Below are positions 23,036 through 26,391 of a DNA stretch of 64,000 nucleotides, piece after piece. The position numbers and the translations under genes are program-made. The stretch is from Acidimicrobiales bacterium (GTDB taxonomy: Bacteria; Actinomycetota; Acidimicrobiia; Acidimicrobiales; Aldehydirespiratoraceae), in NCBI GenBank assembly GCA_029246685.1, contig JAQWMR010000019.1, positions 1-64,000 of the forward strand. The letters are read 5' to 3'. How positions within the stretch are numbered: the stretch's first letter is position 1; each line of letters starts with the position of its first letter. The notes beneath the pieces were generated by a model. That model was not told where the DNA came from and searched no databases. It saw only the letters and a program-made list of their open reading frames with translations.

Positions 23036-23434
23036 TCAGCCGGCTCCGGTGGCGGGAGCCGCAGGCTGCCAGTCGAGCCGTGGGCAGTCGCCCCACAGGC
23101 GCTCGAGTTGGTAGAAGTCGCGCTTCTCCTGCACGAAGACGTGGACGACGAAGGCGCCGTAGTCCATCAGGACCCACTCACGTTCTTCCTTGCCCTCGAC
23201 CCGGGCCGGCTTCGGGCCGCCGGCACTCGAGATCTTCTCTTCGATGCCGTCGACGATCGCGTGGACCTGGCGGGGGTTCGAACCGCTGGTGATCACGAAG
23301 TAGTCCGACACCGAGAGGACCTCCCCGACGTCGACGATCAGCGTCTCTGTGGCCTTCTTGTCATCGGCTGCATCGGCCGCAAGACGGGTCCAGCGCTGGA
23401 TCTCGTCAGTCGTGGTAGTCACAGGGTCGGTCAT
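23036..23434 (-). CDS. rsfS: Ribosomal silencing factor RsfS
   Basis: RsfS binds L14 of the 50S subunit and blocks subunit joining when nutrients are scarce. The 132-residue protein carries the family core: KKATETLIVDVGEVLSVSDY, FVITSGSNPRQVHAIVDGIE, EWVLMDYGAFVVHVF and YQLERLWGDCPRLDW. The ATG at 23434 overlaps the upstream nadD-fusion stop by 4 bases (ATGA). This preserves the nadD-(lytR)-rsfS order common in actinobacteria. Confidence 0.95.
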   Translation of the reverse strand: MTDPVTTTTDEIQRWTRLAADAADDKKATETLIVDVGEVLSVSDYFVITSGSNPRQVHAIVDGIEEKISSAGGPKPARVEGKEEREWVLMDYGAFVVHVFVQEKRDFYQLERLWGDCPRLDWQPAAPATGAG

Positions 23435-25272
23435 GCGTTGGCGCCGATGGTAACCGTCAGATCCACGACCTCGTTGAGATTCGGGTCGAAGCGGACGTCT
23501 ACCCCGAGCGCTGCCCCGAACGACTCGGCGATCGCGACGTTCTCTTCGACGTGGTAACTCACCACCGTCGCCTCGACGCCGAACTCCCGGGCGTTGCCGA
23601 CGATCGTGATCTCGGCTCCCGCCGCGACGATCGCGGGAATGGCCGCAGCTCTGTTGTTGGCATCGCCTGTGCCATCCAGCACCTGAACGCTTGGCCGAGC
23701 TCCGGGGGCATGCGCGATCGGAAGCGGGATCGTGGCGAGCGCGCGATCCGTCGGCCACGCGAGATCCTTCGCCTCGAGCGCGTAGAGCGGACTGTCGGGA
23801 TCGATCCAAAACGGCGCCATAGGCGGCAGCGAGATGTCCGCGGTACCGGTGGCCATGCCCCGCAGGTATGGAGGGAGGCCATCGTTGAACGGAAGCGTTG
23901 CGGCGATCAGGTCGGCTGGATCGCCGGTGGCGGCGACCTGCTCGATCTCGCCGAGCCAGGCCCGCCAGACGTCAAGCTGGCGGTCGAAGCGGGTCGCGTC
24001 TGGTTCGCCGGGGTTCAACCAGCCGTAGACCGCAGCGAGATCCTGAGCCGAGAAGTCGCGGGCGCCCGCCTCGATGACGACCTCGATGCCGTCATCCGTC
24101 TCGACGACCAGGTCATCCACGAGAACGAACGGAATCGGCTCGACCTGTTCGAAGAACGAAGCAAGCCGGTCCGTGGACATGATCATCGGGTCGTCGGTGA
24201 ACCCCGCACCCATCCACTCGGCGACAGCGGCCTCGAGCGCTTCGATGCCGTCCTCCTCGTAGAGCTGGCCGAGAAATACCTGCGTCTCGTTCTCGAGGAG
24301 CAGATCGCGAGAGAGCAGCGTGAGGCTCGCGCCGCCCTCCTGCACGATGGTCTGCGCGAGGACCGAGACGCCCACAAGGCGGTCCAAGTTGTCGGTATGG
24401 GCCACGATCAGGGTCGGCGTGGGTGTCGTGAATGCCAGAAAGCCCGGGGCCAGTGGGTCTCTGACGACGGGAACCTCTTGTCCGTCGGTCGTGTCGAGCA
24501 CGGCCTTCGTGCCCTCGCGCCAGAGGAGGAAGACGACGGCGCCCGCCATCACGATGAGCAGTGGGAAGACGAACCGGAAGAACGGATTCGCAGGCGGAGC
24601 GGGACGCCGCCGAGATGGCGGGGCCGGCGGTTCCGCCGGTTCCGTCTCGGTCGGCACGTCGTCGACGACGCTCACGCCGTAGAGCTCATAGTTCGCCACA
24701 TCGTCGACGACGGTACGGGGAATCAGGTCGTCCACCGTCTTCTCCGTCCGGATTCGTTCACGGATGTCGCTCGAGGAGATGTCGATCATCTCGACCTCCA
24801 CCACCTCATGAGGCCAGCCGGCCGGTGGACGTCCACCATCACGACCGCCCCGATCGACGACCACCGTCGTCGCCAGATCACGTACTTCGTCGGGTCGCTT
24901 CCAGCTCGGGAGCCCGTCCGCCGCGTCGGATCCGACGAGGAGGAACAGCTCCGCATCGGGATGCTGGCGGTGCAACTCGGCGAGTGTGTCGGCGGTGTAG
25001 GACTCCCCGCCCCGCCGGATCTCGATCTCGCTCACCTCGAGCAGGGCCTCGCCGGCGAGCTTGTTGATGTCCGACACGGCCCGTTCCGTCATGTCGAGCC
25101 GGATGGGCGCTGGACTGACCGCGTCGCCGTCCTTCTGCCACGGATCGTTGGCGACAACGAGCATCATCCGGTCGAGTTCGAGCGCCGCACGCACTTCGAG
25201 GGCGACCATGACGTGCCCGTTGTGGAGAGGGTCGAAGGTGCCGCCGAAGACCCCAATGCGCTCGGATTTCAC
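23431..25272 (-). CDS. nadD: NadD fused to membrane-anchored LCP-like/LytR_C module
   Basis: Residues 1 to about 200 are a complete nicotinate-mononucleotide adenylyltransferase: GVFGGTFDPLHNGH, then ISSSDIRERI. It makes NaAD for NAD synthesis. A Pro-rich basic linker and one transmembrane helix (FVFPLLIVMAGAVVFLL, about 240-257) follow. About 230 extracellular residues come next, with weak LytR-CpsA-Psr character (LIVAHTDNLDRLVGVSVLAQ, LTLLSRDL) but without a clear catalytic Arg/Asp set. The last 90 residues are a LytR_C domain (SVQVLDGTGDANNRAAAIPA, VVDLTVTIGA). In related genomes these are two adjacent genes, and here one frame is open across both. GTG at 25272 is supported by a -10 seven bases upstream. 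Confidence 0.85.
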   Translation of the reverse strand: MKSERIGVFGGTFDPLHNGHVMVALEVRAALELDRMMLVVANDPWQKDGDAVSPAPIRLDMTERAVSDINKLAGEALLEVSEIEIRRGGESYTADTLAELHRQHPDAELFLLVGSDAADGLPSWKRPDEVRDLATTVVVDRGGRDGGRPPAGWPHEVVEVEMIDISSSDIRERIRTEKTVDDLIPRTVVDDVANYELYGVSVVDDVPTETEPAEPPAPPSRRRPAPPANPFFRFVFPLLIVMAGAVVFLLWREGTKAVLDTTDGQEVPVVRDPLAPGFLAFTTPTPTLIVAHTDNLDRLVGVSVLAQTIVQEGGASLTLLSRDLLLENETQVFLGQLYEEDGIEALEAAVAEWMGAGFTDDPMIMSTDRLASFFEQVEPIPFVLVDDLVVETDDGIEVVIEAGARDFSAQDLAAVYGWLNPGEPDATRFDRQLDVWRAWLGEIEQVAATGDPADLIAATLPFNDGLPPYLRGMATGTADISLPPMAPFWIDPDSPLYALEAKDLAWPTDRALATIPLPIAHAPGARPSVQVLDGTGDANNRAAAIPAIVAAGAEITIVGNAREFGVEATVVSYHVEENVAIAESFGAALGVDVRFDPNLNEVVDLTVTIGANA

Positions 25273-25279
25273 GGGACGC

Positions 25280-25308
25280 AGTGTACGACTCGGGCGCAAG
25301 TCAGCGAA
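25280..25308 (-). promoter_or_regulatory. Promoter of nadD-fusion gene, leaderless
   Basis: TTCGCT (25308-25303), 17 bases, then TACACT (25285-25280) on the minus strand. Only 7 bases separate the -10 from the GTG at 25272, so the transcript would begin at the start codon. Confidence 0.5.
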
Positions 25309-25365
25309 TGTCGCCCGAAAAACCACGTTCGGTAGCAGACGTGACACAAGTCACGTAAGACTATG

Positions 25366-25394
25366 CTGACAGCAAGCGCGCCATGGTGTTTAAT
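25366..25394 (+). promoter_or_regulatory. Candidate promoter of sigma-factor gene
   Basis: CTGACA (25366-25371) is followed after 17 bases by TTTAAT (25389-25394), a good sigma70-like pair in the 279-base divergent region. The start point near 25401 would give a leader of about 150 bases. A second possible -10 (TATGCT) lies about 25 bases further upstream. Confidence 0.42.
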
Positions 25395-25551
25395 ACTGCC
25401 GCTGGACCGGAGTGCGACGCGCGCCCGCAAGTCGCGAGCACACGGTACCTGCTTCCCCCCAAAAACCACCCAAGGCATTCACGAACAAGCGAGTGTGCCA
25501 AGAAACGAAACACGGAATATCGCGTGTGCGAATTCCGTTGAGCGAGTTGTC

Positions 25552-26391
25552 ATGAGCGATTCTGTTGGACAGTACTTGAACGAGATCGGTGCGGTTGCAC
25601 TTCTCAACGCCCAGGAAGAGCGTGAGCTCTCCCAGGTCATCGAGAAGGGCTTCGAAGCACGTGATCGCAAAGAAGCAGGCGAAAAGGGTCGTGAACTCGA
25701 CCGGGCGATCCGCGATGCTGCGGCCGCCAAGGACCGGTTCATCCGGGCCAACCTTCGCCTCGTGGTGAGCGTTGCTCGCCGCTACCCCCTTCCCCCCGGC
25801 ATGGAGCTCCTGGATCTCATCCAGGAAGGCAACCTGGGCCTCGAGCACGCGGTCGACAAGTTCGACTGGCGCAAGGGCTTCAAGTTCTCCACCTACGCCA
25901 CCTTCTGGATCCGCCAGGCCATCGGTCGTGCCCTCGACCAGAAGGCCTCCCTGGTCCGTCTCCCCGGTGACCGTTCCGCTTCGCTGCGTGCCGCTCTGCG
26001 TGCCGCGTCGGGCGACGGCGACGAGCTGGACGACGAGCACGCTCGTCTCCACCGTCTCACCACCCCCACCAGCCTCGACCGCACCATCGGCGACGACGAT
26101 TCCAACGAGCTCGTCGACCTTCTCCCCGACTCCAACCCCGGCCCTGAGGTCGAGGTCATGGCGAAGGCCGAAGAAGAGATGGTCACCGGCCTGCTCGACA
26201 TCCTCGACGAGCGTGCCAAGTACGCAGTCGAGCAGCGGTTCGGTCTCGGTGATGGCCGCAAGCGCTCCTACCGTGAGGTCGGCGAAGACCTCGGCGTCAC
26301 CGCCGAAGCCGCTCGTCGCCTCGTGAAGCGAGCCATCAACTCCGTGCGCGAGCACGCCGCAAGCATCGCCGACACCGTCGACGCCGCCTGA
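25552..26391 (+). CDS. RpoD-family (group 1/2) sigma factor
   Basis: The 279-residue sigma70 protein has region 1.2 (DSVGQYLNEIGAVALLNAQE) and a strong region 2 (FIRANLRLVVSVARRY, LDLIQEGNLGLEHAVDKFDW, FSTYATFWIRQAIGRALDQ). Region 3 is shortened and acidic, and region 4 is present (EQRFGLGDGRKRSYREVG, LGVTAEAARRLVKRAINSVR). It lacks the long region 1.1 of principal sigma factors, which suggests a group 2 (SigB-like) alternative factor. ATG at 25552 begins region 1.2, although only a weak SD precedes it. Confidence 0.9.
   Translation: MSDSVGQYLNEIGAVALLNAQEERELSQVIEKGFEARDRKEAGEKGRELDRAIRDAAAAKDRFIRANLRLVVSVARRYPLPPGMELLDLIQEGNLGLEHAVDKFDWRKGFKFSTYATFWIRQAIGRALDQKASLVRLPGDRSASLRAALRAASGDGDELDDEHARLHRLTTPTSLDRTIGDDDSNELVDLLPDSNPGPEVEVMAKAEEEMVTGLLDILDERAKYAVEQRFGLGDGRKRSYREVGEDLGVTAEAARRLVKRAINSVREHAASIADTVDAA

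Follow-up and report, generated by a model that had tools for sequence, protein, structure and literature searches.

A candidate NadD–pseudo-LCP fusion in an Acidimicrobiales genome and its probable origin by stop loss

In the 64,000-nucleotide stretch of an Acidimicrobiales genome analyzed here (referred to as the window), the gene for the NAD synthesis enzyme NadD shares one open frame with a gene for a degenerate, membrane-anchored LCP/LytR_C protein. The arrangement probably arose recently, when the stop codon between two overlapping genes with coupled translation was lost, yielding a tolerated, membrane-tethered NadD. The fusion of NadD to a pseudo-LCP protein is what is new, its component parts being already known; a search of the open-access literature found no described NadD-LytR fusion.

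One frame and its gene setting

The minus strand of 23431-25272 carries a single frame of 613 codons, running from a GTG at 25272 to a TGA at 23431-23433 without an internal stop. (Read on the plus strand, the same interval translates in a different frame from that of the fusion.) G+C content by codon position keeps one phase from end to end, which indicates that this frame is the coding one in both halves. The initial annotation had described one frame encoding a complete NadD, a transmembrane (TM) helix, and an outer LCP-like/LytR_C module, and this description is borne out by the frame itself, the profile scores, and the predicted fold. The gene that follows is rsfS (23036-23434, minus strand), identified from its sequence with TIGR00090 and PF02410 both above cutoff; it starts within the fusion's stop codon, in an ATGA overlap. 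On the other side, a sigma-factor-like gene lies divergent beside nadD both in the window (25363-26391) and in a distant genome, G212 (L054, 4083-5078), so the neighborhood is conserved in that direction too. A TACACT sequence sits a few bases ahead of the nadD GTG (window 25272-25300), where there is no clear Shine-Dalgarno site, and the fusion transcript may be leaderless.

The NadD domain occupies residues 1-199 (24676-25272, minus strand) and is complete. It scores 171.2 bits against NCBIfam NF000840 (cutoff, 150) and 136.7 bits against TIGR00482 (cutoff, 112.45), and it matches Pfam CTP_transf_like at 9e-19. Both nucleotide-binding motifs are present in the translation, GxFDPxHxGH as GGTFDPLHNGH and ISSxxxR as ISSSDIR. 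No other NadD match was found in the genome; since the fused copy is the only one found, it is presumably active. Set against the NadD family (nicotinate-nucleotide adenylyltransferase, NF000840/TIGR00482), the window protein is thus typical in its full domain, intact motifs, and status as the sole copy found, and it differs by a 414-residue membrane-anchored extension. An extension of another kind occurs in a relative, G031 (L008), whose 234-aa nadD product (764-1468) has a C-terminal extension of degenerate GTGRH/GxDI-like repeats ahead of the bases it shares with the pseudo-LCP gene.

What joins the two halves? Residues 200-229 (24586-24675, minus strand) form a linker, rich in Pro/Glu and then in Arg, that is disordered in the predicted model of the full-length fusion (pLDDT below 50 at residues 202-227) and that aligns with the N-terminal tail that the unfused protein has in relatives. 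Next comes the TM helix, residues 230-259 (24496-24585, minus strand), which is helical in both the outer-part and the full-length models and conserved in the alignment. The sequence RRRPAPP stands just before it, as expected for positive-inside orientation. If the protein is made whole, the models predict a membrane-tethered NadD, with a cytoplasmic enzyme, a TM anchor, and an outer domain, and we infer a full-length, active product of this topology. The initial annotation went further, tethering NAD synthesis to the membrane at sites of wall assembly. The tethering follows from the topology on the same proviso; the placement at sites of wall assembly is unsupported.

An LCP fold without LCP catalytic residues

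The outer part consists of an LCP-fold domain, at about residues 280-532 (23677-24435, minus strand), and a LytR_C-type C-terminal domain, residues 528-611 (23440-23691, minus strand). The first was recognized by Foldseek, by VIA-align comparison to TagT, TagV, and LcpA, and by an HMM profile run against LCP chains in the PDB; the second was recognized by a weak match to Pfam PF13399 and by its fold. An AlphaFold2 model of the outer part, built from 47 aligned sequences, has a mean pLDDT of 91.5 and matches LCP structures in Foldseek with E values down to 2.8e-11. VIA-align gives Z scores of 18.5 for TagT (216 residues; rmsd, 3.3) and 18.3 for TagV, against 3 or less for unrelated folds, and the family profile finds TagV (9e-13) and TagT (2e-12) among PDB sequences. 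Pfam LytR_cpsA_psr (PF03816) gives no match in the window protein at E values up to 1 and a weak one in 16 of the 47 orthologues. Pfam LytR_C scores 19.3 bits in the window protein, below its cutoff of 22.2, and is matched by 40 of the 47 at E values up to 0.1. The last 85 residues resemble LytR_C-type structures, namely, an Rv2700 orthologue and the C-terminal domain of Rv0431, with VIA-align Z scores of 6 to 7. The same contig also encodes, at another position, a canonical LCP protein with a LytR_C domain.

In LCP enzymes, conserved arginines touch the pyrophosphate, while D234 and D246 of Cps2A hold magnesium (PMC7831098; PMC6381275). R219 of TagT and both R149 and R266 of A. oris LcpA have been implicated in catalysis (PMC7831098; PMC6381275). 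In a profile alignment, which maps positions by sequence rather than by coordinates, the RMR of TagV becomes GWL in the window protein and the RSD becomes RLV, while DxxRxxRQ is retained. The window's LCP domain therefore appears to lack the catalytic Arg pair (RxR, the TagT R219 region) and the first metal-binding Asp (the equivalent of Cps2A D234), in line with the earlier impression that this part seems to lack catalytic residues. At the first Arg and the Asp, a comparable loss is seen in the unfused orthologues, making it a family trait that predates the fusion. Across the order, the LCP-fold protein beside nadD is without the first catalytic Arg and the first metal Asp and keeps DxxRxxRQ; from these alignments, the nadD-adjacent proteins apparently constitute a widespread pseudo-LCP family.

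How does this domain compare with better-known relatives? With the LCP transferases TagT/TagV, A. oris LcpA, and Streptomyces PdtA, the window protein shares the fold, the TM anchor, the LytR_C domain, and a gene position adjacent to nadD, but it departs from them in the missing Arg pair and first metal Asp and in the absent PF03816 match. The LytR_C-only proteins VirR/Rv0431 and Cei/Rv2700 likewise combine a TM segment and LytR_C without LCP catalysis, whereas the window protein still has a complete LCP-fold domain. By analogy, VirR and Cei are a possible model for a nonenzymatic role of its LCP/LytR_C part.

The junction and the loss of the stop codon

Across the family, the usual state of nadD and the pseudo-LCP gene is a 4-bp ATGA/GTGA overlap of stop and start. 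In the genus, the two genes are separate with a 4-bp ATGA overlap in G001, G002, G003, and G006 (the comparison leaves aside G005, whose contig stops at the pseudo-LCP start codon). In the nearest relative, G004, which is 68% identical over the whole, the junction reads ...GGG ACC GCC TGA ATG ACC..., with stop and start side by side and in phase. In the window the junction is ...TAC GGC GTG AGC...; compared with G004, nine bases, ACCGCCTGA, including the stop, are missing, and GTG replaces ATG. This GTG (Val200; 24673-24675, minus strand) stands where the relatives' separate gene starts. The window keeps the GTGA motif, but nadD now enters it in the downstream frame. If the ATGA overlap seen in the genus is taken as the starting point, the window junction amounts to a shortening by 5 or 8 bases; an alternative route is a single-base insertion into a shorter nadD tail. 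The statement that these are adjacent, separate genes elsewhere holds in nearly all relatives examined, usually with the 4-bp overlap, and one half of the refuting evidence named along with it, relatives with separate genes, turned up in G001, G002, G003, G004, and G006; the other half would be reads showing a missing stop or frameshift.

These comparisons suggest how the fusion could have come about. In the ancestor, to judge by the relatives, the end of nadD would have overlapped the start of the degenerate membrane-anchored LCP/LytR_C gene in ATGA or GTGA, or abutted it, and the overlap implies that the two were probably translated by coupling at the stop/start. A small indel at the junction would then have removed the nadD stop or shifted nadD into the downstream frame, leaving a GTG at the old start. 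Ribosomes that formerly stopped and restarted would now read on into one polypeptide: cytoplasmic NadD joined through a flexible linker to a single TM helix and, beyond it, an outer pseudo-LCP/LytR_C domain. The 1:1 dosage and the membrane tethering would be by-products.

Of course, the frame could also be a sequence or assembly artifact, with nadD and its neighbor separate and overlapping by GTGA in the true genome and a single erroneous base in the junction sequence (TACGGCGTGAGC versus one base shorter). This is the main rival, since a single base would be enough to restore the family-typical arrangement. The GTGA motif is intact at the junction, every other member of the genus with a readable junction is unfused, and there is one genome per species, so that an indel error at this point is possible. 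It is nonetheless unlikely. The junction contains no homopolymer, and removing one base would leave NadD with a shorter tail than it has in any of the genus relatives read. In a rough test of G000, the window's genome, against G004 over about 42,000 aligned residues, six adjacent match pairs were flagged; the five inspected looked like gene boundaries or conserved upstream DNA and not like clear frameshifts, which suggests few indel errors in G000. (A Viterbi scan of codon usage, also aimed at frameshifts, was set aside because DNA this rich in G+C made it too noisy.) The same genome holds, outside the window at about 67807-67995 of G000:C6 and upstream of a cytochrome P450 gene, a stretch whose translation is about 95% identical to G004; it is more similar than the P450 gene itself and is possibly a conserved noncoding element.

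A second fusion, in another family, argues further against error by showing that such events recur. In the order survey, one frame of 610 aa in G212 spans both parts; its junction, TCA GCG GTG AGC GGC, again has GTG at the old start, whereas in the sister species G293 and G275 the two genes are separate and overlap by GTGA. None of the remaining genomes of the G212 family showed a fused match, and no further fusion appeared among the matches listed for the relatives, the order, the phylum, and the G212 family. The number of fusions among the matches listed is at least two. By sequence comparison, then, the fusion arose at least twice from a tight overlapping or abutting arrangement and is not conserved within clades. 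Several other candidates were set aside. Long open frames at NadD in other genomes have a stop after NadD, the upstream open frame being spurious; three candidates of exactly 637 aa from one genus proved on inspection to be spurious upstream open frames; and in G169, G110, and G050, a stop lies within the longer match.

Does the retained GTG still serve as a start? Both fusions have this start codon at the old position, which could mean that a separate pseudo-LCP protein is made alongside the full fusion, but this is quite unlikely. The internal GTG has Shine-Dalgarno-like pairing of −1.9 kcal/mol, a value equaled or bettered at about 73% of in-frame codon positions and too weak to count as a signal, and the termination/restart coupling is gone. 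With the lost stop barring restart and the internal GTG lacking such a signal, the fused chain is likely the main product.

Tolerated accident or selected device

Could the fusion have been selected because a NadD anchored to a wall-type membrane protein couples NAD supply to envelope growth? The nadD-lytR-rsfS neighborhood is old and wide. In Negativicutes the gene order is nadD-yqeK-lytR-rsfS (PMC7549365), and in Streptomyces the LCP gene pdtA (SCO2578) has been suggested to be cotranscribed with the NadD gene SCO2579 (PMC7831098). There is also the mycoplasma NadD-YqeK fusion JCVISYN3A_0380, which is functional (PMC9426524). There, as in the window, the C terminus of NadD is joined to the product of a conserved neighbor, and such fusions work (PMC9426524); YqeK, however, is a hydrolase acting on NadD-type products, whereas the window's partner is an outer-face pseudo-LCP domain that is not known to be connected with NadD chemistry. 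Selection is very unlikely to be the explanation: in both lineages the sister species are without the fusion, the LCP catalytic residues are gone from the outer domain, and there is no known biochemical link between NadD and LCP activities. The idea of targeting to wall-assembly sites falters on similar ground, as the catalytic loss is common to unfused orthologues, the sisters are unfused, and a one-base change is enough to make the join. Most improbable is a fixed, selected fusion in which the outer pseudo-LCP/LytR_C part controls or positions NAD synthesis on the inside, revealing a functional link within the nadD-lytR-rsfS neighborhood.

Because its occurrence is sporadic and it is unconserved in sister species, a tolerated accident is preferred to a selected device. 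Most likely the stop-loss fusion is tolerated rather than selected, and we infer that it is near-neutral, a term that here rests on nonconservation in sister species.

If the fusion is real, an accidental consequence of overlapping genes has tied an essential cytoplasmic enzyme to the membrane, and this is seen in two separate families. It would also be a hint that the conserved nadD-lytR-rsfS neighborhood may reflect more than coexpression. The more general by-product of the comparison is that the order carries a widespread nadD-adjacent LCP-fold protein without LCP catalytic residues, and this pseudo-LCP family may be a more lasting question than the fusion.
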